Shown here: positions 1 through 49,068 of the stretch, in pieces
Layout: every line of letters begins with the position of its first letter
How positions within the stretch are numbered: the first letter of the stretch is position 1
Origin: Polytrichum commune
Lineage: Eukaryota; Streptophyta; Polytrichopsida; Polytrichales; Polytrichaceae
Length of the DNA: 64,000 bases
Reading direction: 5' to 3'
Assembly (NCBI GenBank): GCA_950295325.1
Contig: OX485807.1
Location: 32,337,666-32,401,665 of the forward strand
Notes under the pieces: model-generated
Told to the model about the DNA's origin: nothing
The model's database searches: none
The model's input: only the letters and a program-made list of their open reading frames with translations
Position numbers and translations under genes: made by a program

Positions 1-1104
1 CGATATCTCATTCCCCGGATCTGCAGGCTAGGTGCACAGTCCAGCTGCGGAGACAATAAACCACACGGAACGAAAAACAGCTCGGAATCCATCTCGCATG
101 AGCTGCAGGTTGATTGTCGGTCCGCTTTGGATGACTTAAAGCCTCCTCGGAAATCATAGCGGCAATTTTTTTTTCTTCTTTCCACCAGACTATTATTTCC
201 CGGGACTTGAAGAGAATTCGAGGTCGAGATCCTGTTGTGGCCATTCTTGTTTTTTTGTTGTTTTGAATCTGGAGCGAGTTCCGAGGATTTTTGGCGGAGG
301 CTACCGTAAGTCCCATCCAGTAATTCCCACGCACATCTGTCGGCTGTGTATTTTGCTTTGAGAGGTTGAGTTCTAAGTGAAGGTAGGAGAATTTCGAGTG
401 CCTTGTGTGCGCAGGTGATTTAGTTCTTACTGCCTGCGGAGGGTGAGTTGAGAGAGTATAGTTTTGAATCTTGAATGTAACGTTCAATCAAGGGATATTG
501 TTTGCAAATTTCTTGTAAGCTGAGTTGTAACAAATTTGTTCTTCTCATATAGATAACTGCTCTTTAGACTGTAGAGAAGACAAAGAGGCGAGGGAGAGAG
601 TAAAGCATAAGAGAAAAAAAGATTGGAACAAATTGACATGTTGCACAGAATCATTTCTTCTGTCTCGGGTGGGTTATGAATTCTTTTTCAACGAGATGCC
701 TCTCTTGACCAACGTAGGCTGGTTTGCCCAGTTGACAGATTTTTCAACTACCTATTCCCATTTGCACTTTCGATGCACCTTTGAGATGGCGTTTTCTTTT
801 ATGTACAGATTTAGCCTCGTATAATGACTTTCTTGAATTCTAATTTGAGTGGTGGAACCTTGGCCGTCGACTGAAAATGGTTATAAATCTTGAATACTAT
901 CATACCTCTCAAATTTTCTTGAATTTGGCAGAATCTCAGGAAGTGGTGACAAGTTCGATTGAATATCATCACAAAGCTACTATTGGGTTATATTATCAGG
1001 GTGATGTGGTTATATGTATCAGTGAGGATATCTTTACTTATAGAAAATACTTTGTGCATATGTACATACCCGTAAATGATTTAGTAGCACTATTTCTTGT
1101 GCAG
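1..1104 (+). other. 5' leader exon and leader intron of the ABCB gene (inferred)
   Basis: A probable untranslated first exon runs from the window edge to about 305, where a good donor (acc|gtaagt) occurs. An acceptor (cttgtgcag) at 1093-1104 precedes the start codon at 1127 by 22 bases. The roughly 800-bp leader intron is AT-rich and shows no coding signal. The promoter is either in the first 300 bases or left of the window. This is inferred from splice sites only. Confidence 0.45.
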
Positions 1105-1126
1105 GTTTTTGTAGAAAGGAGCAGTC

Positions 1127-4100
1127 ATGGCGGATCATCCAATTCCTGATATTACAATGCCAGTCCCATCGGATTTTCCTTCCGAGACCAAATCGACAAT
1201 AAATGGCACCGCAGAGACTGTAAGCAAAGCGGAAGAAAACAAGACTGGAAAGAAGGGGAAGAAGGAGAAGGGGAAGAAGGAGAAGGGGCATACAGTGCCG
1301 TTTTTGAAGCTATTTGCGTTTGCGGATCCCTTGGATTATCTACTGATGATTGTGGGGTCGATTGGTGCTATTGGTAATGGAGTGGCTATGCCTCTCATGA
1401 CACTCCTTTTTGGAGCCCTTACGAATGCGTTTGGTAACAACCAGACTGATACAACTAGTTTGGTTCACGAAGTCTCCAAGGTGTGTGGTTGCTCTCTCCC
1501 GAGTCACACATCTTGTTTTTCTTTCCTTGTAGACCGGTACCTTTCGATAGGTATCTAAAACATTGACAACTGTGAGTTTCAATCTGTGCTCGACTATCAT
1601 AATAATACTTTCAAGTGACATGCAGGTAGCCCTAAAATTTGTTTACCTTGCGATTGGAGCTGCCGTTGCATCATACTGTCGTGAGTATTTTCACTTGTTC
1701 GTTATTCATAGTTTAGGGGTCCTAATAAGAATGCCTGTTGTGCATCGTCATGAATGTTTTTTTTGAATTTTTTTCAACTAGAATTCGATGCAATGAGTTC
1801 AGTTTGCTCGTGTGTAGTGTAGTTGAAGTGGCTATGCTTGAATTATTTTACGGAACAGCAGAACCCTAAACCCTCAATGACGTTACTCAACCATTGGAAA
1901 TGATGAAGGCCATGTTATCTTCTTGGGGTGTAGAAATCACATTTTGGATGATAACTGGAGAGCGCCAATCCGCCCGAATTAGGAGTCTCTACCTTAAAAC
2001 CATCCTGCGGCAAGATATCCCATTTTTTGACCAAGAGACCACTACGGGCGAGGTGATAGGTCGAATGGCTGGAGACACAATCCTCATTCAAGATGCAATT
2101 GGTGAAAAGGTATGTAGAAATACCTGCAGAATAATTCTGTTTGAGGTCTAGTTACTGCGAATCAATTCCGTGAAGGAATCATATTGTCTATCTTCATTGT
2201 TGCTACTTCAATTGGTTCCGTGAAATCAGTGGTAGGCCTTAAACCCTTGGGGTGGTGTTTTCTGAACAGGTGGGCAAGTTTCTGCAATACGTAGCCATGT
2301 TCTTGGGAGGATTCTGTGTTGCATTTTACAAGGGGTGGAGGTTGACTCTTGTGATGGTAGCCACTATGCCACTGTTGATCGCGTCAGGCGGAACCATGGC
2401 TTACGTGATGGGGAAAATGTCAAGTGCGGGCCAGGAGGCGTATGCTGACGCTGGATCAACTGTCGAACAAGTGGTCAGCTCAATACGAACGGTGAGAAAA
2501 CATTCCTTGATGGTGTACAATGTATGCCCCATCGATGCTTACTAGACTTTGTTGCAATCTTGGTTATATAGAAAATTGCTTGATGGTGCAAAATTGAACC
2601 AACGTATGGCCTGTCGTTATTTGCTGGATTTTATTGCAATTTTGGCTATATCAAAAATCATTTGATGGTTCACAAATGAATCAACGTATGCCCCATCGAT
2701 TATTTATGGACTTTGTTGCAATCATGGCTGCATGGCACCAACTCAAATGCAGTTCACTCTTCTAAGAATGCTCCCATGTATCTGACTTGTAGGTGGCATC
2801 TTACAATGGTGAGAAGAAATCCGTTGTAGAGTATGACCGCGCGCTGGCGAAGGCTGAGAAGTCGGGGATCAAGTCGGGAGCTGCTGCCGGTATTGGGCTT
2901 GGAGTTGCACTGTTTGTTGTGTTCGCCAGTTACTCCCTTGCCATGTGGTATGGGTCGATCCTTGTTGCAGACAGAATCTTGTCGGGAGGAAATGTCATCA
3001 GTGTCATCTTCGCAGTACTCACCGGAGGATCGTAAGTACCTTCCAGGCTCTGCTGGTTCACGTCGTTTTCCCAGACATTGGAGTGCAGCTTGTATGCATG
3101 CCATTCATACACTCTTGAATGTTGATGATTGCTTGCATCACAGTAGTTCCACGGGAGCTGAATCGTAGGATAGAGTTTCGAGGTTTCGGAGAAGGTCCCC
3201 TAATTATATGTATGATGATGTTGCCCTAATCAGATCAATAGGCCAAGCGGGTCCATGTGTATCCTCCTTCGCCGCAGGAAAAGCGGCCGCGTACAAAATG
3301 TTTGAGGTAATCAAGAGGAAGCCGAAGATAGATGCGTACGACTTGAGCGGCAAGACGTTGGACGCACTCAGAGGTGAAATTGAGCTTCGGAGCGTCGACT
3401 TCCAGTACCCAAGTCGGCCAGATGTCCCAATCTTTAAGAACCTGAACCTGTTGATTTCTTCCGGGACAACCGTAGCATTGGTAGGGGAGAGTGGATCTGG
3501 GAAGTCCACAGTTGTGAGTCTGATTGAGAGGTTTTATGATCCAAACAGCGGTCAAGTGTTGGTAGATGGGTGTGACATCAAGACATTGCAATTGAGATGG
3601 TTGAGGAAGCAGATTGGGCTTGTGAGCCAGGAACCGGTGTTGTTTGGCACCTCCATCAAGGAGAATATCGCTTATGGCAAGGATGATGCTACCGATGAGG
3701 AGGTCTATCAGGCAGCCGCTTTGGCAAACGCAGCTAATTTCATCACCAACATGCCCAAGGCCTTCAACACACAAGTTGGTGAGCGAGGCATCCAATTGTC
3801 AGGAGGTCAGAAACAGAGGGTGGCAATTGCCAGAGCTATTTTGAAGAACCCAAGGATTTTGCTGTTGGATGAAGCCACGAGCGCTTTGGATGCTGAGTCG
3901 GAGCGCATTGTCCAAGAAGCACTGGAGAATGTGATGGTGGGTAGGACAACTGTTGTTGTGGCACATCGTCTTACCACCATTCGTAACGCAAATCTCATCG
4001 CTGTCATACAACGAGGCGTGGTTGTCGAAACCGGTATAAGAAACACTTAACCTGATTTCGTCAAAAACTTGTTAATGGCCATACATAATTTTTGCCACCT

Positions 4101-7100
4101 TAAGGTCGTTGATGAATTGTTTTGAACATCATGAAAGTCGATTCTCGTTGACATATACCTATCCAATGTCCATAGCATTCTTAGGCATGTGTAGGATGTT
4201 GTCTTATTATTCTAGATTCAAGAATATATCCAAGCATCAAAGTCCTTCATTACATGCATGAATGCCAAGCATTGTCAAGTGGCATTAAACTCTCATTAGT
4301 CTGACACCTCATTGGTACCTATCTATCTGTGGACAAAGCCCTCCCAACTACCAAGATTGATTCAACCCAAGGAACTTGCCAAAAAGGAAGCCACCGAGTG
4401 TATGCTCTCCAAGATGATGCTTATCTATGGTGAACACTCACTACACCACTTAAGAGTGCTATGTCTAGTGTATGTTGTACTTGCTTAGCAATTTCTGTTG
4501 TAAACTAATTTTTTTGAAACTTGATAATCCGCAGGGACACATGATGAGCTTCTGAGGAACTCCGACGGAGCATACTCATCACTGATCCGGTTGCAACAGA
4601 TGGACAAGAAAGAAGACGATGAAATGCTGAACGGAGAATTTGAGGGTGCAAATAACGATGCAATTAGTCGATCCCTTAGCAAAGGGTCACGGGCTAGCCA
4701 TGGTAGCCATAACCTTAGTCTGTCCCGGAGCACCCGAAGTGCCAACAGGAGTGTTCGAGAGCAACCTGGAAGTGCCAAAAGCGAAAGGAAAGACCAAGAC
4801 ATTGAAGAGGGGGAGAAGAAATACAGGACACGCACTGAAACTTCCATCTTCCGCCTCGCAGCCATGAATAAACCTGAGCTTCCAGTTTTTATTGTTGGAA
4901 TGGCAGGCGCTCTTGGGAATGGCTGCACGTTTCCGGTGTTCGGGCTCTTGTTGTCCAATGCCATTTTCTCATTCTATTTGCCAACTCCACATGAGATTCG
5001 GAGGAAAGCGAATTTCTGGGCTCTTATGTACTTAATTCTGGCTATTGGAATCCTCGTCGTTGCTCCCACGCAGATATTCTGTTTTGGATTGATAGGGCAG
5101 CGGCTCATTCGCCGTCTGCGAAAAATAACATTTGAGAAGGTGCTGAGGAATGAAATCGGATGGTTTGATGATGATGACAATGCAAGGTGGGGATGCTTCG
5201 AAGTTTTGATCCTTAAGCCTTAAACCCTAAACCCTACACCGATTTTTTCTCTTCTTGGGGATGTAACAGAGTCAGAATGATTCATTATCAGTTCAGAATT
5301 TGAGGAAAGGATGAGCTTTGTTTTTTGTTTAAAAAAAAATAGTGTGTTTTCTGGATCAAACCAAACATTTGGCTTTTGTTATTACCTACTTCAAGGTTTT
5401 GTCTTACCTCTCCTATTTTCCTTGTGTCGAGGAGATTGAGGTCTTCATGCACATGCTACACAACAATTTGCTTGAGTCTTCCCGTTACCTCTGGAGATTG
5501 GAGGGTCAGTAGCAGAAACTTAAGACAAGGATCCATTGTTATCAGGAACTCATGAACTTTCATCAGTGTAGATGATGTTGTGGAAGGTGTTTCCTTCCAT
5601 GCAGATTGATTGTTGTGATGATGGCCCTTGGTCAAATGGCAGCAAAAGCGTTTACCATTTGGCTTTAATTGCTTTGTATTGAGTATTTACTTTCTGAGAG
5701 GTTTGGATATTTAACTATCTCTGTGGATTCTTATTTTATGCTTTCCTGGTGACCTTTATGTGCAAGTGTTGATGTTCGAACATCATCAATACTTACAAGG
5801 ATATTTGGTTTTTGGGTGCAGTGGCTCAATTGGTGCACGCCTTTCCACGGATGCAGCAGCTGTGAAGACGATGGTGGGAGATACCCTTGCCCTCGTATTC
5901 CAAAACATCGGCACCGTCATCTGCGGCTTATCCATCGCCTTCAGCGCAAATTGGGAACTGTCACTCTTGGTTCTGGCCTTGGTTCCTCTTCTTGGTACAC
6001 AAGGATACTTTCAGATGAAGATGATGAAGGGTTTTGGCAATGATGCGAAGGTAATTCACGAGATTATACTACTTATTGACCTCTGTTTCCTCTAGTGGAC
6101 CCCCTTAACAATATCTTATAAAAATCTGTCAGAGAAGTTTCTATAGAGGTGCCACAGTACTAGAAATACGTACAGTGTAACAAAAACAAGGAAAATCTAC
6201 TTTCCTTCCCTCCCCTTCTCCTTCCTTGTAAAATCTACCCTGCCTGCTTCCCTCCCCTCCCTTCATTTTTATCCTCTCCTCTTTGATCCCTTCCTTCCCT
6301 TCCTATCTTACGCATTCCTTGGGTCTTCCCTTACCCTCATGCATTGTGTTCAAGTAGCTTTGGTAAATTCCAAGGAAAAAGCGGAGGGATGCAAGAAGAA
6401 TACAAACCCTAACAATGAAATAACCAAGGGAAATAAAAGACATGCAACTACTATTCGACACATTAAATACTCCACTAACGGCCTTGATTGAACTCATCCT
6501 TCAATATAGTTTTAGTGGTCGTGATTGTCCAAGTAATGCACACATGACCCTAATTCTCCTAGCGCTATCCCTAGCTTCCCTACCCTTCATTACCCCTCGC
6601 TCTCATTGCTTGCTGCAATTTAATTTCTAAATGTTTTTGGAGGCTCCCAAAATTAAATGACCCCAAATGGAACAAGGCCTACACTTTTTGTCTAATTTAG
6701 TTTATTTTTCCCACTTTTCTCACTCGTCAACTTTACACTCTGATCTGTGTAGGAAGCATATCAAGATGCAAGCCGAGTGGCAAATGATGCCATCTCAAGC
6801 ATCCGAACAGTTTCGTCGTTCTGCGCAGAGGAGAAGGTGGTGGACTTGTATGTGGAGAAGTGCAAGAAGCCCTTGAACAGTGGGATTAGGCAGGGCTACA
6901 TTAGTGGGACTGGCTTGGGATTTTCCAACTTCGTTATGTTCTCCTGCTATGCTCTTGCCTTTTGGTTCGGTGCGAAACTCGTCTCACAGGGCAAGACAAA
7001 CTTCAATGCTGTTTTCAGGGTCTTCTTCGCCATCACCATGAGTGCGATGGGCGTGTCCCAGTCTGCTGGCATGACACCGGACCTGACAAAGGTCAAGATT

Positions 7101-8437
7101 GCTGTGAATTCGGTTTTCGAGCTGCTTGATCGCACTTCTGAAATTGATCCGTATGACCAGGGCGGGAAGACCTTGAAAGCTGTTCGAGGTGATATTGAGC
7201 TCTGCAACGTGAGCTTTACGTATCCAACCAGACCAACCATTACCATCTTCAGTGACTTGAACCTCACCGTGGAGGCTGGCAAGGTAATTTGTCGTCTATA
7301 AACTTTCGCCATGTTTTTTTTGTCATGTTTCTTGATAAGTGGCTCACTGCAGTAGTGATTGACATTTGTGCATTCAGTTATTACGTAGTTTGAAGAATCC
7401 AATGAACTCAATCGAGCAATTTTCGAGAAGAAAATGCTTGCTGTCTGTTTCTATGAATGGAGAGATCCGACCGCCAGGCATAGACCATGGACCGGTTGAG
7501 TTTGGTTTATAACCAGTTCAAGTTCAAGACTTTAGGCAAATAGTTGATCATTTTAGAGGAGTCTATAGATTATTCCTTAAATCAATCAAGGAAAACTGGA
7601 AGGAATCAGCATGTAATTGGTCGGACTTGGAAACACTTAATTCTCAACCGATTTGCCTAAAATATCCCCAGACGTTGGTGTGTTTAGCATGGTTTATGAG
7701 TTAATGGACATCACAATGTTTATAACGATTTTCATTTCACTTGATGTAAAATCGACTCGACTGACTCATCATGACTTCATCCATTTGTGCAGACTGTGGC
7801 ACTTGTGGGAGAGTCGGGTAGCGGGAAGTCGACCGTCATTTCATTGATTGAGCGATTCTATGACCCTGTCAGCGGTGTAATCAAGCTCGATGGTGTTGAT
7901 ATTAGGCAGTTACGAGTGCATTGGCTAAGGCAACAGATTGGGCTCGTGAGCCAAGAACCCGTCCTGTTCAACACGTCCATCAAAACGAACATTGTGTACG
8001 GTAGAGACGATGTGGTGGCTGACACGGAGGTCGAGGCCGCCACTAAGGCGTCCAACTGCCACAAATTCATAACGGGCTTGCCACAGGGATTCGACACGTT
8101 GGTCGGCGAACGGGGTGTCCAGCTCTCCGGGGGACAGAAACAGAGGGTCGCCATAGCCAGGGCTATTGTCAAGGACCCCAAAATTTTGCTCCTCGATGAG
8201 GCCACGAGCGCTCTTGATGCCGAGTCTGAGCACGTCGTTCAAGAGGCACTTGACCGTGTGATGGTGAACCGAACCACCATTGTGGTGGCACACAGGCTAT
8301 CCACAATTCGCAACGCGGACGTTATTGCGGTCGTCAAAAACGGGGTTATCGTTGAACAAGGCAAACATGATGAACTCATGGCTCGAGAGAATGGGGCGTA
8401 CCATGCCCTTGTCCGCCTCCATCTTTCCTCGTCATAA
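1127..8437 (+). CDS. ABCB: ABCB-type (MDR/P-glycoprotein) full ABC transporter, 10 coding exons, 1300 aa
   Basis: Full-size ABC exporter of the B subfamily, a plasma-membrane ATP-driven pump; plant members move auxin and other amphipathic compounds. Exons by splice site and phase: 1127-1480, 1626-1680, 1934-2109, 2270-2491, 2793-3031, 3234-4033, 4535-5186, 5822-6050, 6753-7283, 7793-8437. They sum to 3903 nt with no frame break. Layout is TMD1-NBD1-linker-TMD2-NBD2. NBD1 has Walker [10 protein letters not shown] near residue 434, signature LSGGQKQR near 536 and Walker [13 protein letters not shown] near 556. NBD2 repeats all three near 1091, 1197 and 1216, so both ATP sites look competent. 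The N-terminus carries a lysine/glycine-rich stretch ([13 protein letters not shown]). The TMD1 segment [19 protein letters not shown] and the length are typical of plant ABCBs. The substrate cannot be read from sequence. Confidence 0.95.
2500..2735. repeat. Imperfect tandem repeat (about 95 bp x 2.5) in an ABCB intron
   Basis: Within the intron after the fourth coding exon, a block built on 'cttgatggtg..caa', 'aacgtatgcccc' and 'gactttgttgcaatc' recurs about three times. It lies between donor 2492 and acceptor 2792 and does not touch coding sequence. Confidence 0.7.
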
Positions 8438-8548
8438 ATCAAAAATCTTATACGGAAATCTCTTCATCCGCAGCTTTCATTGCGATCTTTCTCCGGAGCA
8501 TAACAATAGATAGATCGTAGTTAGGTGGAATCCGAACTGCAATTCGTA

Positions 8549-8595
8549 AACCCTAAACCTGAAGCCCTAAACCCCAAACCCCAAACCCCAAACTA
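8549..8595. repeat. Interstitial telomere-like run (CCCTAAA and CCCCAAA units)
   Basis: About six units related to the plant telomere repeat stand in a row at the junction between the ABCB 3' end and its duplicated copy. Shorter CCCTAAACCCT motifs also occur in ABCB introns near 1863-1878 and 5216-5236. Confidence 0.7.
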
Positions 8596-8597
8596 CA

Positions 8598-8843
8598 GGC
8601 TATTCACAATTCGTAATGTGGACAATATTGCGGTTGTCACAAACAAGGATATCATCAAACAAGGCAAACATGATGAATTGACGGCTCGAGACAGTGGGTT
8701 GTAAGCAGCATGCCCTTGTCCGTCTCCATCTTTTCCTCTTTCATTAAAAACCATGGAATGGAAAATCCCTTCATCTGCAGCTTTGGTTGCGACCGATTGT
8801 TCTCTGCTGTAAAACAATAGATAGACTGTAGTGTAGTTAGGTT
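8598..8843 (+). pseudogene. Decayed duplicate of the ABCB 3' end (C-terminal codons plus 3' UTR)
   Basis: This stretch aligns with 8291-8525: the codons around [15 protein letters not shown], the [12 protein letters not shown] segment, then the 3' UTR up to 'aacaatagatag..gtagttagg'. It carries many substitutions. The copied frame is closed by a TAA just after the codons for ARDSG, and there is an insertion before 'catgcccttgtccg'. It starts after the telomere-like run. It cannot encode an NBD and is a tandem duplication relic, although it may be transcribed as extra 3' UTR. Confidence 0.85.
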
Positions 8844-8845
8844 AG

Positions 8846-10734
8846 CCATGCCGTATGGCATGCATTGGAGGTCGTGGGGTTGCAAAAGCCCAGAATATAT
8901 GCAGCACTATTGCTGGATCTGGAAACTCATAGAGAGGAGTCACAAACCGAGGAGCGGTTGCGACATGTATAATTATGGCATTGTTTCTCTTTCCCATGTT
9001 GATGCAGTCTACAATTTTGGCTTGTACATAAATTCTTTAATAGATTGCATAAGCTCATCCTCGTCAATAAGGACTGTTGGTGACTTGCACCCTTTCCTGA
9101 AAACTTTGTCAAGATTCAGGGTGTGACTGGAATTAGGTTTTAGGGTTAAGGGGTTAGTGTCTCTGTGTAGCAGTTCATCTCACAGTTGTTTCGGTGAAGA
9201 TCTCTCGTGTGAGCATTTCGTTGGGAAACAGCCACCTATGCCATTTATTCATTCATCAAGCATGCTTGGAGGTGGTGCATTGAATGGGGAGAACTGACTG
9301 CTAGTTACAAATGAACTGGTTGAGTTTGAGAAATAGTTGGTTGAAAGTTACTGAACAATTTAGAGGAATGTATAGAATATACCTTGACTAATAAAGAAAC
9401 TGAACGATCACGGCATGGAAACAATTGGACTTTGACCGATTAAATTATGCCCAAAAATCTCTTCGGACACTGAGGTGGTGTTTGAATTTGTAAGACGAGC
9501 AACCTATTTCGGTTGGTTTGAGGGACAAACACATTCTGGCAACTTTTGGCATGCCAAAAGTTGCGTTTGACTCTCGATGGGCCGATGTAGAATGTTATTC
9601 ATTCAAACCTCCACACTACCTCCAAGCATGCACCACAAACTTACTGAACATGGAAGGTGTTCTATGCTAAACAACCAACTTCCAACCAAAAGTCACGTTG
9701 AGTTCGAGGACAACGCTACTGTTCTATTCGCGTCTAGTTGGGAATCAGGATTAGGAGCTTTCGCAAATGTATTCCGGTTTCGAAATCATCTGCAACTGTT
9801 ACCCTGATTGGCGTTGCTTGTATTAACCATGCCCCACTTTCCTGGGTTGTGTTTTGGGCAATTTTGCAATTTGAGAACACACGGGTTCTTAAATCTTTGT
9901 AGGCATTAGTAACCTTCAATTTATAGTGACCCAAGTCTTTCTACAAAATTGTACCTAATACTTATATGCACATGCCGCAGTGCAGTGCCACTAAAATACA
10001 CCTTGGCATTGCTGTCAAATAATATTATTGTCAGATTTAACTCTCTGTGAGATCAATGTCGTTCCAATTACCATGTCTGGACGAGCTGAGAATCTGAAAA
10101 ACCTTTCGATTCCAAGCCAATTCTCATAACTGCCGATTCCGACACATTACAAAGTTTTATTTCCTGTTTACTTCCTAGCTGCAAAATTGGCTTTCCAGTT
10201 GTCGATTTTGCATCTGCCTGTTCACTGCTTGACTAGTGCACTGGTCCAGCCAATCCCATAACAAGACTAATCATCAAACATTTGCGTGGGGGTGTTACTA
10301 GGTTCATTTTTTTCACATTCTCCAACTTCTACCATTTTGATTCACACAACGAAACTTGTATTGCATTAGCAAATCTACAATGAAGCATCAGCAAAAAGTG
10401 GATTGACAATCAAACTTCTCTTAATTTAGTTGTGTTTATCGGAAGTGCGTGTTTGTTGATTTCGTCATTGATTACATAGATCCTCCCAATTGTGTTCACT
10501 ACTGAGTGTCGAGTAGTTAATAAAATATCGAAGACGTAGTCCAATCTCTTTCAACAACATGTTTCTCTTTGACCCGAACCACACACCAAGCATATATAGA
10601 TATGTGATTAAGAAAAGTAACTGAATCACACCCGCATACCTTAGGTCATTGAAAAAAGAAAGAAAGAAAGAATGTCTGTGCAATCGTGGTTACTCAGAAG
10701 CAACTTGTCATGTTGAGTAGAAGCTATGGCGAAC
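8846..10734. other. Intergenic spacer with one dispersed foldback repeat copy
   Basis: No convincing gene. Holds the ABCB downstream region, a foldback repeat copy at about 9225-9725, and a stretch (9290-9470) resembling ABCB intron sequence at 7480-7680 ('gaggagtctatagattat' against 'gaggaatgtatagaatat'). The rest is AT-rich and convergent to the end of the next gene. Confidence 0.5.
9225..9725. repeat. Dispersed foldback repeat, copy A
   Basis: The left arm contains GCATGCTTGGAGGTGGTGC near 9260. The right arm contains CTACCTCCAAGCATGCACC near 9618-9636, its inverse. The sequence after the right arm ('aaggtgttctatgc', 'aaccaacttcc', 'gttgagttcgaggacaac') matches copies near 18.1, 53.5 and 55.5 kb. 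Confidence 0.65.
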
Positions 10735-13700
10735 TTACGATGTTTGAGCTTCCTTGAACACTTCCGAGCATACAAAACTCTGTTCATGGATAAAGGGAGA
10801 ATGTTTTAGTCATAGCCTTGTTCCAATACAAATTTGAATAGAAACAAAAACCAAAGCGACCTAATAGCCAAGGGTTTCCGGAAACCTGTGAGCATCATAC
10901 CTTGATGAAAATTTGTGGTATTTCTTTGGGATGATGCCAGTGAGGCAGTTGCGACTGACATCTCTGTATAATTGTCACCCCCAAAGTTCAGGGTGAGTCA
11001 TTTTGTGTAGGGAATCAAATCAAATTGGTGCAAGATGTGCAAGAATCTCGGCGACGCTTATAACCACACCATTCAAGGTATTCAGTGTCGCTCACTATTT
11101 GGAATCACATAATGGTATAAATTTTAGTTTTTAACCAACAAAGATTAAATAGGTTGCATGACCATTATACAGCATAAGCGACTTTACTTAGTAAAAACTT
11201 ACAGTCTTCGCCAAATTTTTTTTTTATAGAAATTCCGAATAGTAAGTGACACTAAATTCCATAAATGTTGTAGAGGCTTAAATGTTTTCCATTTTCTAAA
11301 GATTCACCATGACACAAGGCCATGAAAGGCTGCATGGATATCTGGAGTCTTAAGTTCCCTTGAGGTCAAATCCATGCAATCTCAACCGTTGAGAGCATGG
11401 AAGTTGGGACTTACCACTTCACACAGGGTCCCAATTCCTAAGCCAAGTATGGGATGGATGCCTACATGGTTGCACGTTTTGGAGGTGAGGCTTGGGACTT
11501 GTGTTGAGAGTTGGGGGTCTTTAACAAAAATCTCAGTAATTGTTTTTGCAGAAATAATGAAGAATTGACTTCTAGTGGATGTAAACCATACTTTAATGAT
11601 TTCTTGAGGTTCAAAGTTGGGACTTTGCCCTCCATGTTGGGACTTGCTGATAGGAGTGGGACTTGGGATCCCATGTGAACTGGCCCTTAGTATCGCTTAT
11701 TATCCAAAGTTACATAGTGCTACAACTTTTTTTCTTCTTTTTTTGGGTAAGAATGTAAGTCTTTACTAAGTAAAGTCATGTATGTTGTGGAGTGTCCATA
11801 TAACCTATTTAATTTTTGTTGGTAAAAACAATCCTATAGTAAAAAACTATTACTATTACATAATTCTAAATAGTAAGCGACACTAAATACCATACACAGT
11901 GTAATGAGTGTAATGTTGCCATTTTCACTCGAGGTTTTGATATAGAAGAGATTCACGAATGTCGACAAGCCGGGGTCATTGATAAGACACAGGAAGTGAG
12001 ACTTTGTTAAAGATTGTATTGCTTACATGGATTTCAAGTTCGACTTGAGGAGTGAGACTGGGACTTTCCCTGTGAGCTCATTATTGCTCAAATCTCTGCA
12101 CCGCCGTGATATAAGTTCCAGCTTAAGTGAAGAGGCGATTTGGGATATCAATATCGTACAAATTGAAAGAAAAAAAAAAACTGTGTCTCTCACACTTTTT
12201 CCATTGTCCTTCAATAGTGTAACTTTGGTAGAATTGTGAGGTTTAACTTACACCGATTTCAGGTTGGGCAGACTCGGCAAGCTGTCAGGAATCTCTCCTG
12301 TGAATGCATTGTTCGACAAATCTCTGCAAGAAAGATGGTGAGAGTGCTACTTGGCTTGAGAGTGTTGGAAGTATTAACCTCAATGGGTTGCACTAATATT
12401 GACAGTCAATAAGCATCATATAAAAGTACCTTCATTGATACTTTTGATTATGGGATGAGACCTTCTTGAATCTATTACAGAAAAAAGATGGGAGGTATAG
12501 TTTGTGAAAGGTACAAGTATTTGAGGTTAGCGAGCCCTCGAACTACATTTCCATCTGAGACAACCCTGCCATCGTCAACACTTCAATGTGCACACATCAA
12601 TCATGTTAATGTTTTCTCAAGTTCTTGAGAAATTGTTAAATACGTGTTGTAATTCTCATTGAGGTGACATCGTATCGTTTTTCAAGGCAAACATCTTGCG
12701 TGTTAGTTTAGTAACTGGATCCACATAAGAGCTCGATTGTTTGCTACCAATTTGATGTCCTGTATGCAAGCTTTCTTGTCTTTCAAAACTTTGAATACGC
12801 TCACAATGTGAAAGTGAACGGAATTTAGCTGAATCATGATTGATTGATGAAAATGAGGATTTGCACACCTTGGACTCTCTTCCACCGATTCCAAGAGGTG
12901 TCGAGATTGGTGGCCTTGTGCATTTGTAAATTTTTCATGAGTTTCAACCTTGTCGTCATCACAAGGCGGGCCTCCTGGTCTGCATTTCATCACATTTTAC
13001 ACATTTGAGCTTCATAGTTCAACACTCCACTACAATCATGATAGTTTCTTGTTTTGAGGAATAATTGGTAAGATTGTGATCCTAACAAATTGGGCTCAGA
13101 AACCTACCCAGGTCTAGGCCGAGGAACTGGATTTGAGTCATTGAACCTATAGTCGATATACATGAATCTTGTCAATTGCTTTGGTTGCATATTTTTTGTT
13201 TCAAGATGGGTCATTTCTACATCATTCTTCAACTTTTTTTTTTATTCATATCTTGACTAGGAAACTTGATTCTTCACATCACAAAAGGAATGTGAGTATA
13301 TGGCATACATATTTGCTATGTATGGCACAATTCTTGTAAATACTTGTGTAGTTTTTGTTTGCACAATGAACTATTTTACGCAAAGGTTATTGACAACCAA
13401 CCAACTACCATGTGTTTACGATTAAGTAAGCACGACTGTGCCTAAATTTACTCTCCACCTATTTTGTAAAGATGTTCCAAACAATCACATGATGAAATGT
13501 GGCATTTTTGGGAGATATAATTATTCATTTACGCCTAAATTAACGTGCATGTAGGGTATTTGATGTGTTGTATACATTGATTGCTCACAAAACAATCCGA
13601 AATAAGCAACAAAGGGAATTCACATGCAACGAAGATTACCCAAAAAGATTCATAAGAACTTACAAGGGTGGTATTGGGAGCGTAAAATTTGGTGGAGTAT

Positions 13701-16700
13701 ATTGCGGAATAGGTGGGAAGTCTGGGAAAGTAAAGTTGGGAGGCGTAAACACTGGTATGGGTGGAAAGGTGAAATTAGGGGGTGTGAATGGTGGGATTGT
13801 GAAATTGGGCGGTGAGATGGGTGGGAAGGTAAAGTTGGGGGCTGGAAATGGTGGGAAGGTGAAGTTTGGAGGTGTAAACACTGGCATGGGTGGTAAGGTG
13901 AAGTTAGGGGGTGTGAATGGTGGGAATGTGAAATTGGGCAGTGAGATGGGTGGGAATGTACAGTTAGGAGGTGAGAATGGTGGAAATGTAAAGTTGGGGG
14001 GTGAGATGGGTGGGAAAGTAGAGTTGGGGAACGAAAAAGGTGGGAAGGTGAAGTTTGGAGGTGTAAACACTGGCATTGGTGGTAATGTGAAGTTAGGGGT
14101 TGAGAATGGTGGGAATGTGAAATTGGGTGGTGAGATGGGTGGGAAGGTAAAGTTTGGGGGTGGGAAAGGTGGGAACGTAAAGTTAGGAGGTGAGAATGGT
14201 GGGAATGTGAAGTTGGGAGGAGTAAACACTGGCATGGGTGGTAAGGTGAAGTTAGGGGGTGAGAATGGTGGGAATGTGAAGTTGGGAGGTGTAAACACTG
14301 GCATGGGTGGTAAGGTGAAGTTAGGGGGTGAGAAGGGTGGGAATGTGAAGTTGGGGGGTGTAAACACTGGCATGGGTGGTAAGGTGAAGTTAGGGGGTGA
14401 GAAGGGTGGGAATGTGAAGTTGGGAGGTGTAAACACTGGCATGGGTGGTAAGGTGAAGTTAGGGGGTGAGAATGGTGGGAATGTGAAGTTGGGAGGTGTA
14501 AACACTGGCATGGGTGGTAAGGTGAAGTTAGGGGGTGAGAAGGGTGGGAATGTGAAGTTGGGGGGTGTAAACACTGGCATGGGTGGTAAGGTGAAGTTAG
14601 GGGGTGAGAAGGGTGGGAATGTGAAGTTGGGAGGTGTAAACACTGGCATGGGTGGTAAGGTGAAGTTAGGGGGTGAGAAGGGTGGGAACGTGAAGTTGGG
14701 AGGTGTAAACACTGGCATGGGTGGTAACGTGAAGTTAGGGGGTGAGAAGGGTGGGAATGTGAAGTTGGGAGGTGTAAACACTGGCATGGGTGGTAAGGTG
14801 AAGTTAGGGGGTGAGAAGGGTGGGAACGTGAAGTTGGGAGGTGTAAACACTGGCATGGGTGGTAACGTGAAGTTGGGAGGTGTAAACACTGGCATGGGTG
14901 GTAACGTGAAGTTGGGAGGAGTAAACACTGGCATGGGTGGTAATGTGAAGTTAGGGGGTGAGAATGGTGGGAATGTGAAGTTGGGAGGAGTAAACACTGG
15001 CATGGGTGGTAACGTGAAGTTAGGGGGTGAGAACGGTGGGAATGTGAAGTTAGGAGGTGTAAAGGGAGGGAAGGTAAAATTTGGAGGAGTAAACACAGGA
15101 AGTGGTGGAAGAGTTGGCAGGGTGAAATTTGGAGGTGTAATTGGCGGTAATCCAGGGAGTGTAAAATTAGGGGGTGTAAATGACGGAAGAGGAGGAAACT
15201 GAGGTTGAGGGAGAGGTGGGAAGGTGAGGTTGGGCATGGGAGGGAATTGAGGTTGGGGTAAAGGTGGAAATGTAAAATTGGGGAATGTAAAGTTGGGAGG
15301 GGTGAATGTGGGAACGGGCGGAAGCCCTGGGAGTGTGAAATTGGGTGGGGTAAATGGAGGAAGAGGGGGTAATTGAGGTTGTGGCATAGGGGGCAATTTT
15401 GGGATAGTAAGATTAGGCAGAGTCGTTGTGAAATTGGGTGGGGTGTATGCAGGGAGAGGAGGAAATTGAGGTTGAGTGAAGTTTGGCAAGAGTGGATATG
15501 TGATATTCCTGCATCCAAAAATTGTACATAGTATGCATTAAATTCAAAATACTTGAGCACTAACTTAATGCTTAAAAGTTGGAAAGATGAAATGAATTGC
15601 ATTCAACAATTATGCTCATAGCGTATTAGAATGAACTCTACCTCAACCATCTAGGTTGTGAAGTTGAGTTGCATAAGAGTGTGGGGGAAGCAGAGAGAAT
15701 GCAACGTACACCAATTATACAACTTATGTGTAGACACTAATGGCATTTTCTTCTTTTGTATCTACTCATTCTTAACAATTTCGGTGTTGCATAACTTTGT
15801 TATTATGTTTACATTGAATTCTAAACTAAGTATGGCATTTAAGTATGCCATATTAATGAAGCTTGGAAACATAAGTTTTCATAACATATTCATAACACAA
15901 GCATAAGTTGTGATATGTGCGTAATTGTTGGTAATCTATAGTTAGGATGAACTGAAAAAGCTTAAATTGATGGTAGTGTCAAATTAGTTGTAGGAATGGA
16001 TGTACATGACATTGAGAAAGTCAATTTTAGTATGGAATTATTAAAAAAATCATAAAATACTTCTCAAAGTCGCTTTTTTTACTTTGAGAAGTATTTGTTA
16101 TGATTTAACTAATGATTTAATAATTCCATACTATAATTGATTAGACTACTAAGTGAAATAAACATTCCAAAAAACATATGTTGAAGTTTGACTTAATATA
16201 TGTACTCACAAGAATGGGATGGATAGCGGTGGTAATCCTGACATATTCCTGCACAAAATTTCAACAAGCCAGCGTCAAAAGAAAATGTGAATTGATCTAA
16301 AGTGCGAAGCTCATGTACGCTAAATTGGCCATCACATGCACGAAAATTATACTGGACACCTATGAGGAACCAAGAAGATATATACCATGTGCTACTCCTT
16401 ACCCTAGACCAGTAATGGAACTCAATATGGGTGAATCACAGTCCTCTCGAGGCACATTCCACAGTTTAAACTGGCGTAAGTGTAGGAAGCTCAACAATTG
16501 TCCAACAATGTATGGACTAGGATGGAAATTGATATATCATATGGCCACTAAACAGTTGTATGCACAACTAGTTTGGTCAATTCACCAATGGAATAGCTCA
16601 CAAAGAGCCCTTCTTAATGTGGTTATCCTTGCGTTAGTAGGATGTCAAACTTTATGGCATTTTGTTTTTGCAGAACCTGACCTGAAACGAAGAGAGTTTG

Positions 16701-19700
16701 ATAGTGTGGTGTTGTTGGGTGCTACCGTAAAGTAGTGAAGAGGTAGACCACTTTCCATTATATCAAGACGGGGATTGATGGCTTACAATGATGGCAAAGG
16801 TGGGAATAAACAGTCGATGGAGGTACTATTTCTGAAGAACCAGTATTACACATGATATGCCAATAATACCAAGTATTGATTAGTGGCAGCCAGAATTAAA
16901 ACCAGTATGTGCTTCATTTAAATTTTGCACAAGGTACTGTATTTTGCACACAGTAGCATATCGTAGCAAAAGGTATGAATTTACATTGCTGGGACTGGTG
17001 GTAGTGTCCAGTTCATAGTCCTGCACGATTCACATGCAATAATATTGTCAACAAGGTCATCCAGAAACAAAAGCACCAATGTCATTGTTATCCCCTACAA
17101 GTATCCAGAGTCTAAAATATTTATTATATTTGACAGCCAAAACGGTCCCCATAAACCTTGAGGGCTGACAAACTTCCCATTCAAAAAGTATCACGAGAGT
17201 CACCACAATCACAACATAGCTGCACAATGAACTGACCCCAGAATCTATTCTGCTGCCCAAGGACTGCAATAAGCAAAAATTAAAGACTAACTTGATTGGA
17301 AAAAAAGGATGTAGCTCTGTGATTGAGACAAATGAAGCTTCAGGATCAGAGTTTAAGGTACAGTGACGTAGTGAATACTTCTGTCTGTAAACTTAGAGCT
17401 GCCTGATATGGTAAAGGCTGGAAACAATATAGAGTACACCTTTTGCATATAACACTAAATATGCTTGAAGTGGATAAATCTGCAATGCACCAGCACATAC
17501 TACTTCACAATTATCATCTTTGCACCTAAATACTTTGCATTGACCCCTAAATACTTTCGTCATGAGAATAGAAAGCTTACGATATGGTGATGTTTGCGGG
17601 CATTAAAGTTGGTACAGGAAAATTAGGTATGGTGATGTTCATGGGCGTGAGAACTGGTACTGGTACATTGGGCAAGGTCACATTCATGGGGCTCCAAACT
17701 GGCAGCTGCACAGGAATGGTCACTGGAAGCGTCCAGTTTCTGCCCAAAAACACCACAACATTCACATTAGGGACCTGCAGCAGGTCAACATTATTTAATA
17801 GAGTTATCCTTAACTCAATGGGACTTTATGTGGGGAGTCCGTCCCCAATGACTTTCCATCGGCTGTTCTGTATACAAAATCAATAACTTCTTTCCACTTG
17901 TGGTGCATGCTTGAAGGTAGTATTTGAATTTGAATGCAGAGCAACCTATTTGGGTTCATTGCGGGTCAGACTCACTGTATCATCTCATAGCATGCCAAAG
18001 TGAGTTTGACCCTCAATTAGTCACTATAGAGTGTTCTTTGTTCAAAACCTCCACACTACCTCCAAGCATGCACTGGAAACTTACCGAACATAAAAGGTGT
18101 TGTGTAAAATAACAAACTCCCAACAAAAAGTTATGTTGAGTTTGAGGATAACTCTAATGCCATACACAAAAGATGGACACAAAGTAATTATGATCACATT
18201 GGCGTAAAGGGACATACAAACAGGCCAAAGTCTCTAAGTATGACCCTGTTTAACCTTGAGATGGTGCTCAATTTGTGTTGTATGTGCATCTGTGAGTGTG
18301 AATGCTTGAGCCCTTACGAAATCACTTGTGTCAAGTTGAAGCTGGGTATGGTGCCAGTCAAACTGTTCCCTGCCAAGCTCCTGCAGACACACACTTTTAG
18401 ACAAAGTATGGCCATCGAAGGGGAAACCAACTAAGATGTCACATTGAATGCAAAAAATGTATGGGAAACAGAGGATGGGATGTGAACTCACAAGTGCTGA
18501 AGGTTTGAAAGGTCTAGGATCCACTTTGGGAATGCTCCTGTTATTTGGGGGTTGCTTGCAATGATCCTGTGGCAAATCACAATTGTAGGTGTACGTCCAC
18601 ATAGCTAGGAAGTTGCACAGAGGATTTGGAGCCATCAATTAAATGCAACACCAATTTTTTGCGCACATATTATTATTATGATATATTGTGATTTTATCGT
18701 ACTACAATATCATCAAGGCTTACAGGTTTTTCAAGTTTCGGAGATCAGCAATTGCTTGCGGTATGGTGCCTGAAAAGGCAGTCTTAGTGATGGTCAAAGA
18801 TCTCAGAAATTTCAAGTTCCTTATTTCACCCTGCACACATGATAGTGAAGCCAGCTCAGCTAAAAATGAATCCAAATTTAACATTTATCAACTTCAAGGC
18901 ACAATTATTAAAAACGTGTAGAAGTCCGCAGCATTGTTCAAGTTTTGTTTACCGGAATATGCCCTTTAAAATCCTTGCCTTCCAGCGTCCTGCAGAAATT
19001 TGACCCACAATTTTTTCTTCAATTCCGAACTCTTTTCCTAAGCTGATATAAGAACGATTGGATCAATGTGGCATTGTCACAGAAGGCAGCTCATAAAGCC
19101 ACAGGTTTGATTTGGTAGCTGCAACAGAATGTTCTATATAATCTCCATTCCCAAGCGGAGTTCCTTGACTAATGAATCACTGCTTCATGAATTAGCATGC
19201 ATTCATCACTAGAGGCAATCTGCTAGGGACTTGATTTCTCTGAATTTATCATTCTGTTGGTTCAGTTCGAGTTGTTGAATCTTTGGGTTCATAAAAGATA
19301 ACAATTACAATCACTGGGATAGCCAAAGTACGTTTAACCAATCGAAGCAGGGAAGGCTTACAATTCTGTGACAGAAGTGTGATCATCATCACACGTCAAC
19401 CCCCGCCAAGTGCCAGAACAGGCATGATTTGCTTCTGGGTTCCATGACTCCAAAGCTGGGTTTGGATCCTCCAATCCTTGTTTGAATTTCACGAGCGCGC
19501 TCTCTGAGCACAAACAATCCACAACACCCTTATCACTCACAATGCATTTAGATGGAACCAAAAATATAAAATTTAAACTAATTAACTTGGATCATCACAA
19601 ACACAAAAGCTACTGATATATTTGTCATTTCTTATGGTCACGAGTTTTTCATTGCCAGTGATTTAAACATTGTCTAAGAGAGAAAGAAATAAGAAAAATA

Positions 19701-19994
19701 ACATCAAATAGTTGGGCACTGGCGTCAATGGGGAGTCTGTTCTCCTTACTTGGATCATGGAGTTCCCATATTACATAATAAGATATAATAATGCCTTCCT
19801 TTTAGGCCAACATCTACGGCCTGGCTTTTGTCAAGTTTTCTTTTGTTCAGGACTTGGAAGGATAACTTTGTCAAAGATAATAAACCTTGTGATGCAAGAT
19901 CGGCATTCGCGGGAGACACAAGTGCTCCCAGAAGAATAGGTAGTGCCCAGAGCACCATCATTATTGCAGACACCCCAGCACCTCTGGCCCACAT
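10735..19994 (-). CDS. Secreted LRR / proline-rich N-glycosylation-repeat / LRR protein, 16 exons, about 1006 aa
   Basis: Assembled by splice site and phase. Exons: 19994-19886, 19503-19362, 18989-18953, 18830-18724, 18566-18492, 18380-18318, 17739-17581, 17020-16985, 16248-16210, 15508-13664, 12979-12869, 12565-12515, 12323-12252, 12095-12027, 10963-10901, 10777-10735. They total 3021 nt, in frame throughout. Residues 1-31 form a signal peptide ending SPANA. Residues 37-84 are a plant LRR N-cap ([20 protein letters not shown], later [10 protein letters not shown]). Plant extracellular LRRs follow to about 178 ([32 protein letters not shown]). Residues 179-871 are proline-rich with repeated [10 protein letters not shown] charged linker and C-terminal LRRs ([30 protein letters not shown]) lead to the stop. 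No transmembrane segment or kinase is seen, so it is probably an apoplastic cell-wall protein. It resembles LRR-extensins in idea, but lacks Ser-Pro4 motifs and has LRRs on both sides. Exons 11 and 16 are the least certain. Confidence 0.75.
13680..15075 (-). repeat. Coding minisatellite, 69-bp (23-codon) unit of the proline-rich domain
   Basis: Within the large tenth exon, a 69-bp unit encoding [23 protein letters not shown] in rotation recurs about ten to twelve times almost unchanged between about 14205 and 15060. Shorter or mixed versions flank it. Each unit carries two N-F-T sequons, and the whole exon has about 50 N-X-S/T sites. The near identity of the central units points to recent expansion or gene conversion. 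Confidence 0.9.
16030..16134. repeat. Strong hairpin (short foldback element) in an intron
   Basis: An arm beginning 'tatggaattatta' and ending 'tacttctcaaagt' is followed after a short T-rich loop by its inverse, 'actttgagaagta' to 'taataattccata'. It lies in the intron between the exons at 16210 and 15508 of the LRR/proline-rich gene. Confidence 0.8.
17829..18155. repeat. Dispersed foldback repeat, copy B (intronic)
   Basis: The left arm has GTGGTGCATGCTTGAAGGTAG near 17901 (one base longer than its core match). The right arm has CTACCTCCAAGCATGCAC near 18055. It shares with copy A the spacer 'agcaacctatttgggtt' and the downstream tail. It sits in the intron between the exons ending 18318 and starting 17739. 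Confidence 0.65.
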
Positions 19995-21929
19995 TTCAAC
20001 TATTTCTGCACACCATTCAGCAACATATCAAATTAACCTTGCCAGGATTTGCACCATGAGAAAATCAATACCGTTAGCTTATTTTGTCAATCCGAGCTTC
20101 AGTGAATCAACTATATAGGTAACTCCAGTATTCGCACTCTGAACACTTCTAATTGCATCATCCAGAACAAGAAAAAAAACAAATGTAGAAATTTCACTCA
20201 CAGGACTGTTCTACTGAGCTGGAAATCTCATCAATTAGCTGCAATAGTCGCTGAACAGGACCAATATTTCCAGTCACCTATCTGTTCCTAGATTCAATGA
20301 ACTAGATTCAATTGAGGACAAGTGAATGATTTATCATCTCTCCAAGTATCAGCTGTCGTCGTGAAATCAGGAGCGATCCCTCACCTTCCCACGACCCACC
20401 AGGGCAGTTATTGCAGTAGCCAATTACGTCAATGGAGTAGATTTTCTACCCACTGAAGAACTGGTGACCTGTACCAATCTACATGTTGCGTGACACCCAC
20501 ATTCGGGAGGAGAAATATTTCTGACGAGGTTTGTTCACAGACCAATTCTGCCAATCGCAAATGCTAACTGCTGTTCATTTTCCCAGCCCAAACATGATCT
20601 AAGATGTAGCAGCAACAAAAACTTCATAGAAGAGGAGCAAGTTGGACTCTCTCCTCCGGTGCTCAGATAGAGGCCCAATGAGTATTGTAGCAAGTGTGAA
20701 GGCAGAGGAGTAAGGTAGGCAGGCAGGCGGGCAGGGGTGGCTGGGTGGTTATGGGAGTAGTGCAAGAAGTGCGGGATAGGGACCCCAAGCAAGGGTGCCC
20801 ATACTACCTTCTTCACTCACCCTAAAAGCTCACTAACTGCCCTCCTTAACCGTCGGTTATCAAGAGGCTCCAACACCTGCCTGCTCCAAAATCCTCACGA
20901 GGTGATCATGCTGTTATTGAATAACTAGATGTGGCTTCTCGAGAACTGGGTCTCGGGCCTAAGATTTCACACCATTCCAAATTTAACAACTTGGAACAGT
21001 CTTCAATGCAACTATCTCATAATCTTCCGTAGCTGTTCTAATTCCAGAATATGTCATTCTGAGGGCTGATATCTCGCCCTACCTGGTACCAATTAAAATC
21101 CAATGGAGGAGGGCCAAAATCAAGTCGTAGATAGGAGTTTCAGCTTGACATATTAAAGAATCTTCTAGGTATATAAATTTCAGCTTACTCATATCCTTTC
21201 CGTCTGCATTACTAGCAAGTAGTTGTAGGAAAGATAACAACATATGTGTCACTGTATATTCCATAGATTGCCTTGTGAGATCATGAAACAAAGTAGAGGA
21301 TAAAATCATGTGAAGGATTGGGGAAATAAAATAGTCTCATAAGATACAACTCTGGGTACCTGAGGTGTGAACCAAATAACTCATTTGGATAGCCATACAT
21401 GAGGAACTGAACAACCGCATGAACCCACAAGGTGGTATGTCTTCATGCACATGAACAAGTTTAGAAACCTCCAAAACGTCAACCAATGAGTAATTTGCAT
21501 TCGTGCTCTCTAACAAAGATTGACTGACAGTGGATGCAATAAGTTACTTGGTATCTAGCTTGATGCTCTCCATCAGGAGTAAGGTCACTTCCTGCCATGC
21601 AAATGCAGCAGCTGCATAAATACAAATACTAGGGATCTCTTTAACACAGGAAGTGAGGACTGGAATGAGGCTGAAGACCTAAGACTCTTTGTGGAAATTA
21701 TGCAATCATAATCTTCTGGATCTCAAGAACAATAAACACTTTCCACATCCAAATTGCGAGCCCAAATGTAAATGTGGACTAATAGTAAACCAATCATATT
21801 GCTGACAAACATGTCAATAGATACAAAAATCTAAAATTCTCTTTGCATCTCTATCAAGCAGCCTGAAACGGCTGTCACTATTTGCAAGGCCTTCACAAGG
21901 AGAACAAAACTTGGAGCTCTGATGGGCTC
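19995..21929. other. Spacer: upstream region of the LRR/proline-rich gene and downstream region of the chaperonin gene
   Basis: Both neighbours are on the minus strand, so this stretch should hold the 5' UTR and promoter of the LRR/proline-rich gene near 20.0-20.5 kb and the 3' end of the chaperonin transcript near 21.5-21.9 kb. No protein motif, RNA gene or clear repeat is visible. Short open frames here have no recognisable content. Confidence 0.4.
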
Positions 21930-34789: not shown

Positions 34790-35540
34790 GAGGATGTGAT
34801 TTGAGTTTCTTTAAGTGTTGAGAAGTTTATTGGAGAGGTTTGAAGGTGTTTAGACTTCAAGCATTTGACTTGAGTATTTTGAGTATTCAAGGGTTTTTTT
34901 GAGAGCTTTGAAGATGTTTAGACTCAAATAATACATGACTTGAGAGACTTGAATGTTGAGAGACTTATTTGAAAAGTTTGGAGGTGTTTAGAGTTTAAAA
35001 CATTTAATTTGAATGTTTTGAGCGTTCAGAAATTTCTTTGAGAACTTTGAAGGTGTTTACACTCCAATAGCACATGACTTGAGAGGCTTGAATTTTGAGA
35101 ATGTTTTTTGAAAGTGTAAGACGCATTTGAGTTGAAGAGATTTCATTTGAATGATTTGAGTATCCTTAGAATTTTCTTGAGGTGTGGAAAATCTTATTTG
35201 AATGATTTAAGAGTGTAAGGCATTTGAGGTGGAGAAGATCTTATTTGAGATATTTGAGTGATTTGAATGTCTTTCAAACTCTCTAGAGGTGTAGAAAATC
35301 TTATTTGAATATTTTTTAAGTGTATGGCATTTGAGGTGAAAGAAATCTTATTTGAATGATTTGAGTGTCCTTCAAACTCTCTTGAGGTGTAAAAACTCTT
35401 ATTTAAATGATTTAAAAGTGTAAAGCATTTGAAGAGAAGAAGATCTTATGTGAGTGATTTTAATGTCTTAAGAACTTTCACGAGGTGTAGAAGATTTAAC
35501 TTGAAATATTTAAGAGTCTAAGGCATTTAGGTTGAAAGAT
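34790..35540. repeat. AT-rich degenerate tandem repeats before the copia gag region
   Basis: Phrases such as 'gaggtgtagaaaatcttatt', 'tgaatgatttgagtg' and 'acatgacttgagag' recur with periods of roughly 60 to 170 bp. They occupy the position of the retrotransposon leader. No coding potential. Confidence 0.6.
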
Positions 35541-35579
35541 ATTTTGTTTGAATATTTTGAGCTTATATTCAAGCGTACG

Positions 35580-48955: not shown

Positions 48956-49068
48956 GATGTAATGATTACCAATTGGAAATCAAAATTCTATTCCACAAAT
49001 TCCACAAGTTTTCATCAGTTTAGCAAAAACTCAATTTAAAGTCATCTACATCTAGTTTCTCGATGCAT

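Follow-up and report, generated by a model that had tools for sequence, protein, structure and literature searches.

A putative secreted leucine-rich repeat glycoprotein of Polytrichum commune with a giant, sequon-dense proline-rich island between its LRR blocks

The gene described here is encoded by the minus strand of the window, a stretch of 64,000 nucleotides of the Polytrichum commune genome that was analysed. It probably, though by no means surely, encodes a secreted leucine-rich repeat (LRR) glycoprotein whose single solenoid is broken within one LRR by a seemingly unfolded island, an N-glycosylated brush. Two copies of the gene were detected in the genome. The product predicted from the window copy would be secreted; in its resolved part it has neither a kinase domain nor a membrane span. 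Its solenoid would be of the PGIP/LRR-receptor-like type, with one LRRNT cap and approximately 7.5 LRRs in the window copy, and an island of 693 residues (in the second copy, 813 codons in the giant exon alone) would split one of these LRRs. The two LRR parts would most likely pack into a single solenoid binding an extracellular partner, and the island may loop out of it as an extended, densely N-glycosylated brush, which could help to maintain the solubility of the protein and its spacing in the wall matrix, or its attachment to that matrix.

Splice donors and acceptors, together with the reading frames, served to rebuild the gene model; the joint between exons 1 and 2 was set by comparison with the second copy, which is located on contig C6. 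Fifteen exons were joined from the start codon at position 19994 to position 10901, encoding 997 residues up to the last donor (Table 1). The order of the encoded parts is signal peptide, LRRNT, four LRRs, 693 proline-rich residues and about 3.5 LRRs. A chain of LRR, proline-rich and LRR exons had been predicted for this place and was found there, with Pfam matches on both sides of the proline-rich spacer: LRRNT_2 (39.1 bits, cut-off 20.7), LRR_8 and LRR_1 before it, LRR_1 (50.2 bits) and LRR_8 after it. The Pfam scan was run with an earlier exon 1/2 joint and with exon 15 read to the stop, but the two models share the sequence in which these matches fall.

Three details of the original prediction stood only in part. 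It had counted sixteen exons and 1006 residues; the present model has 15 exons and 997 residues, and the longer product was not confirmed. A candidate further short exon lies at about 10735-10779, 3' of exon 15, but comparison of the window with C6 revealed no conserved exon behind exon 15. The phase-2 donor that follows ...KKYHKFSS is present in both copies. The C-terminal block, thought to hold about four LRRs, does consist of LRRs, but by our own count their number is nearer 3.5 in the window and approximately 4.5 in the C6 copy. Finally, the exons join in frame as predicted, but since 12 of the 14 splice junctions are phase 2 and many subsets of the exons would join as well, consistent phases are on their own weak evidence for one gene.

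Table 1 Exons of the LRR gene in the window (all on the minus strand) and their counterparts in the C6 copy
Exon	Position	Strand	Content	Pfam match or comparison with C6
1	19886..19994	-	Start codon and signal peptide; 109 nt	Length and donor place as in C6 exon 1
2	19362..19503	-	LRRNT cap	Pfam LRRNT_2, 39.1 bits; C6 homologue
3	18953..18989	-	LRR 1, first part	37 nt in window and C6
4	18724..18830	-	LRRs 1-2	107 nt in both copies; 22/30 residues identical in compared block
5	18492..18566	-	LRR 3	75 nt in both copies; 14/24 residues identical
6	18318..18380	-	LRR 4, first part	63 nt in both copies; 12/16 residues identical
7	17581..17739	-	Spacer start, NWTLPVT..., sequons	Phase-2 exon at matching C6 place
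8	16985..17020	-	Small, proline-rich	
9	16210..16248	-	Small, proline-rich	
10	13664..15508	-	Giant repeat exon; 614 complete codons, 52 sequons, 38.6% Pro	
11	12869..12979	-	Junction segment, conserved GPPCD and SRHLLES	48% to C6 over 31 residues
12	12515..12580	-	Putative second part of the interrupted LRR (GLANLKYL)	
13	12252..12323	-	LRR	Pfam; 16/23 residues identical to C6
14	12027..12095	-	LRR	Pfam; 12/22 identical to C6
15	10901..10963	-	Last LRR of the model, phase-2 donor at end	14/19 identical to C6

Secretion is suggested by the N-terminus, where the most hydrophobic 19-residue stretch reaches 2.43 on the Kyte-Doolittle scale and forms the predicted signal peptide. Behind it, the resolved 997 residues contain no second hydrophobic span (best value 0.99 versus 2.43). 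As the model stops at the donor of exon 15, a C-terminal membrane span or GPI anchor, as in LRR receptor-like proteins, could follow beyond these residues. The kinase of a PK-NBS-LRR gene in the same window served as tblastn query and found no kinase in positions 1-20000 of the window (best E 0.83) or within 30 kb around the C6 copy (best E 8.5), while the positive control was found. A receptor kinase with a distant kinase exon was considered and rejected, there being no kinase match in either of these regions.

The second copy is encoded on the minus strand of C6 near 20.66-20.68 Mb. It begins with a signal-peptide-like start, the LRRNT and four LRRs, which are followed by small proline-rich exons and by a giant exon with 813 complete codons. 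Behind the giant exon come a short exon that carries GPPCD and SRHLLES and then four more LRR exons. The phases of the first six exons are identical in the two copies, and so are the lengths of exons 1 and 3 to 6 (Table 1); exon 2 measures 151 nt in C6 versus 142 nt in the window. Coding constraint was assessed in nine ungapped blocks, chosen by hand from the LRR and junction exons and amounting to 166 codons aligned between window and C6. The two copies share 112 identical residues in these blocks, with a pS of 0.754, which is saturated, a pN of 0.207 and a pN/pS of 0.275 in frame. When the frame was shifted by one or two positions, the ratio for the same codons rose to 0.92 and 1.59. Third codon positions accounted for 90 of the 165 differences. 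The C6 gene is an old sister copy, located on another chromosome.

Genome searches with pieces of the spacer yielded 17 matches (35 of 35 candidates scored) and 12 matches (24 of 24 scored), which represent the two loci. The single other spacer match, on C1, was weak (E 0.88) and contained two stops. Exon 11 of the C6 copy as query returned only the window and C6 loci (2 of 2 scored). Searches with LRR queries were swamped by other LRR genes, with 178 and 212 matches among the best 150 of 1626 and the best 150 of 888 candidates scored, so that a divergent relative lacking the spacer may have escaped detection.

The spacer agrees closely with the original prediction, which had described about 690 proline-rich residues with a sequon every 11-12 residues, placed internally and free of SPPPP. 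It lies between the LRR blocks and comprises 693 residues with 36.8% proline and 58 N-X-S/T sequons, one per 11.9 residues; 58 of its 60 asparagines are located in sequons, and neither SPPPP nor SP3+ motifs occur in it (count 0 for both). Shuffling its own residues 2000 times gave 6.4 sequons on average and 15 at most, compared to the 58 observed. Within the giant exon of the window, all 52 asparagines belong to sequons, 47 of which read NFT; the main spacings here are 10 and 13. The giant exon of C6 has 49 of 51 asparagines in sequons (22 NIT, 14 NFT, 7 NLT), at spacings of 16, 13 and 22. Taken together, 101 of 103 asparagines are found in sequons although the repeat period and the residues differ between the two exons. 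What the repeats keep in both copies is the sequon, already noted in the original prediction, and the island is probably N-glycosylated. In the 5' spacer of the C6 copy (L005-L006), small phase-2 proline-rich exon candidates appear to be repeated (PLPPPISFPNISAPP twice and TTPT.N.T.PPLPT twice), as if this spacer had also grown through exon duplication.

Selection on the repeats was approached by comparing sequon-centred units of seven codons within each giant exon, using 51 of 52 units in the window, where one edge unit was dropped, and 48 of 49 in C6. The units differed chiefly at synonymous sites, with a pN/pS among units of 0.14 in the window and 0.26 in C6 when read in frame. Shifting the frame by one or two positions resulted in ratios of 4.3 and 5.8 for the window and of 1.2 and 10.1 for C6; shifted units holding stops were dropped, leaving 51 and 32 of 51 units in the window and 41 and 39 of 48 in C6. 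The in-frame ratios were 0.23 (window) and 0.43 (C6) once the Asn and Thr codons, on which the choice of units had been based, were omitted. All these ratios are descriptive only, since the units are tandem copies and not independent; they agree with selection that acts on the sequon and not on a single peptide motif.

That the window repeat is open is in itself weak evidence, as its period is divisible by three and two of the giant exon's three sense frames are stop-free. The C6 giant exon provides the stronger evidence, since stops occur in all five other frames and the coding frame alone lacks them. Two further open frames of the window were rejected as genes with reference to the stops in the other C6 frames: an antisense, glycine-rich frame of 552 residues (plus strand, 13544-15202), taken as a by-product of the repeat, and the second open sense frame of 650 residues. 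Both are attributed to the repeat period, which is divisible by three.

A single gene with the LRR, proline-rich, LRR layout, as originally proposed, is supported by the collinear second copy. Separate LRR and proline-rich genes are unlikely in view of this collinearity, the in-frame constraint and the retention of sequons in both giant exons. The arrangement to be weighed against it, and given a low probability, is a pair of genes. The first would encode a secreted LRR-proline-rich protein of LRX-like layout that terminates at the giant exon and has an N-glycosylated tail, and the second would be an independent LRR fragment downstream of it. Every phase-2 GTAA donor also reads through as a stop, so that the giant exon could in principle end at its donor, which would be a TAA stop in both copies. 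In a survey of 11 window exons and 9 C6 exons, in-frame Met codons preceded exons 4, 8 and 11 of the window copy as well as exons 7, 13 and 15 of the C6 copy, and two genes would draw support from the ATG just before exon 11 in the window and from the one before exon 13 in C6. None of the in-frame Met codons precedes the giant exon in either copy, and none precedes exon 11 in C6, where the intron between the giant exon and exon 11 has only 192 bases (684 in the window). The order of the exons was moreover kept on both chromosomes although synonymous sites are saturated, and the downstream block showed no signal peptide or LRRNT of its own. Within a single gene, the giant repeat might be a recent tandem-repeat expansion with little function of its own, to which we assign an even lower probability. 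The window array does look recently spread, with 12.9 copies of 69 bp at 93% matches (TRF), which suggests that its length may vary between plants; two of its three sense frames are open, and the giant exons differ in size, with 614 versus 813 codons. A mere expansion is, however, difficult to reconcile with a C6 array that has another period, is open solely in the coding frame and nevertheless holds 49 of 51 asparagines in sequons, or with pN/pS ratios among units that fall below 1 in frame only.

The original prediction had further pictured two LRR heads held apart by a rod-like linker, a picture that the evidence does not favour. Two independent heads on a glycosylated linker, which could bridge two wall partners, would be consistent with LRR blocks that flank a 693-residue stretch long enough to separate them and with a modelled spacer piece lacking a fold. 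The LRRNT cap, however, was detected by Pfam on the first block only, the second block begins in the middle of an LRR, and the first shows no recognisable C-terminal cap; the edges of the two blocks look like two parts of one LRR unit. To these observations the structural comparisons add a continuous alignment. An artificial query of 220 residues, in which both LRR blocks were joined directly and the spacer and the first part of exon 12 were left out, found its best PDB match in FLS2 (residues 3-215 on FLS2 9-212) and covered PGIP 1ogq in one stretch (query 2-209, PGIP 9-211), which indicates compatibility with a single solenoid rather than proof, as phmmer/HMMER aligns LRRs with gaps. Two heads on a linker are considered rather unlikely. 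The preferred reading is a single LRR solenoid whose giant island is probably N-glycosylated, based on the N-cap being confined to the first block and on the break inside one LRR. A defined rod was not seen: a 200-residue piece of the spacer modelled by AlphaFold2 from a single sequence, in itself weak evidence, showed no structure (mean pLDDT 54, pTM 0.13), and a 172-residue piece had no sequence match in the PDB at E 1.

As one solenoid with an island, the predicted protein can be placed among known extracellular LRR proteins. It resembles PGIPs and the ectodomains of FLS2 and SERK in having an LRRNT cap and plant extracellular LRRs, and its joined halves align to PGIP and FLS2. PGIPs consist of an LRRNT, about ten uninterrupted LRRs and a C-terminal Cys cap. 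In contrast, the LRRs of the window protein are fewer and are interrupted by approximately 700 proline-rich residues, and two Cys follow the spacer. It differs from LRR receptor kinases in that no kinase match accompanies the gene and no membrane span is present in its resolved part. The known islands of BRI1, PSKR and receptor-like proteins are tens of residues long and folded. As in these receptors, a non-LRR segment would interrupt the solenoid of the window protein, but this island is 693 residues long and repetitive and shows no fold in the modelled piece.

Judged by its sequence, the window gene is not a leucine-rich repeat extensin (LRX), as originally predicted: SPPPP is absent, the proline-rich part is internal, the LRRs are nearer to other loci, and the LRX-type genes of the genome are located elsewhere. 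With the LRX/PEX proteins it has in common the likely character of a secreted chimera of LRRs and long proline-rich repeats without a kinase, as indicated by the hydrophobic N-terminus and the LRRNT_2 and LRR matches. The extensin domain of LRX proteins is C-terminal and composed of SP3-5 repeats (PMC4769139), whereas the spacer of the window protein is internal, without a single SPPPP, and built from sequons. Two LRX-type loci with 11 and 14 SPPPP, distinct from the window gene, were found on C1; the search for such loci could not, at its cut-off, have shown an exon-split gene. The joined window LRRs matched each of them with 60 bits and 27.5% identity, compared to 109 and 98 bits for the LRR-kinase-like loci L009 and L010, a comparison limited by the pre-selection of L009 and L010 as best genome matches of the window gene.

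The two LRX-type genes (L019, C1:58789655-58790581; L020, C1:58881298-58882224) lie in opposite orientation about 92 kb apart. Each is one open frame, of 710 and 721 residues, with LRX-type LRRs, 11 or 14 SPPPP and then a Cys-rich part. The Pfam scan covered L019 and identified its Cys-rich part as a C-type lectin domain (PF00059, 27.5 bits, cut-off 22.6). The L019/L020 type is an LRX-lectin fusion, with the Pfam support coming from L019; such a fusion was not named in the titles and abstract starts of the literature among the matches listed.

Sugars of plant wall proteins are mostly thought to sit on hydroxyproline, as in extensins and arabinogalactan proteins. The predicted protein shares with the plant proline-rich tandem-repeat proteins (TRPs) the secreted proline-rich tandem repeats, and some of these are hybrids with folded domains. 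Passages of a survey of plant proline-rich TRP classes (PMC3149072) name LRR hybrids solely as LRX/PEX, and the terms 'N-glycos', 'NFT' and 'Asn' have 0 occurrences in its main text. Among the matches listed from the open-access literature, no description was found of an LRR protein whose proline-rich domain is internal or N-glycosylated, nor of a protein with the repeat peptides of the spacer. These titles and abstract starts agree with the original view that no described family has this layout. Judged against the matches listed from the open-access literature, an internal spacer based on N-sequons would be new and unusual for a chimeric LRR/proline-rich wall protein. We tentatively consider, as possible but somewhat doubtful, an extracellular LRR class of land plants whose solenoid contains a dense brush of N-glycans that is preserved by selection. 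Such a brush would correspond, with N-glycans, to what the extensin tail of LRX proteins is with O-glycans. The arrays of different period in the two copies, with asparagine nearly confined to sequons, are in line with this. If true, combining LRRs with a long repeat kept for its N-glycan sites would give plants a second route to a glycosylated sensor or scaffold of the wall, and among the islands that interrupt LRR solenoids this one would be an extreme case. The presence of two gene copies in the genome makes the idea of an N-glycan wall protein testable.

The same window contains further recognisable features. On the plus strand, two pieces were assigned to Copia-type retroelements, one at 35514-36071 by a Pfam match to Retrotran_gag_2 and one at 38999-39785 by its appearance; 39354-39785 of the latter was scanned and had no Pfam match. 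Parts of an ABC transporter occupy 3169-8434 on the plus strand, opposite to the LRR gene, with nucleotide-binding domains at 3169-4047 and 7775-8434. The minus strand holds an open frame of 2501 residues at 41474-48979 with a protein kinase domain, an NB-ARC domain and a long LRR array. The array consists of 69.4 copies of 72 bp according to TRF, and Pfam was applied to the first 1226 residues of the frame. By its domain content this open frame is of the PK-NBS-LRR class, which has been reported from Physcomitrella (PMC3352924).
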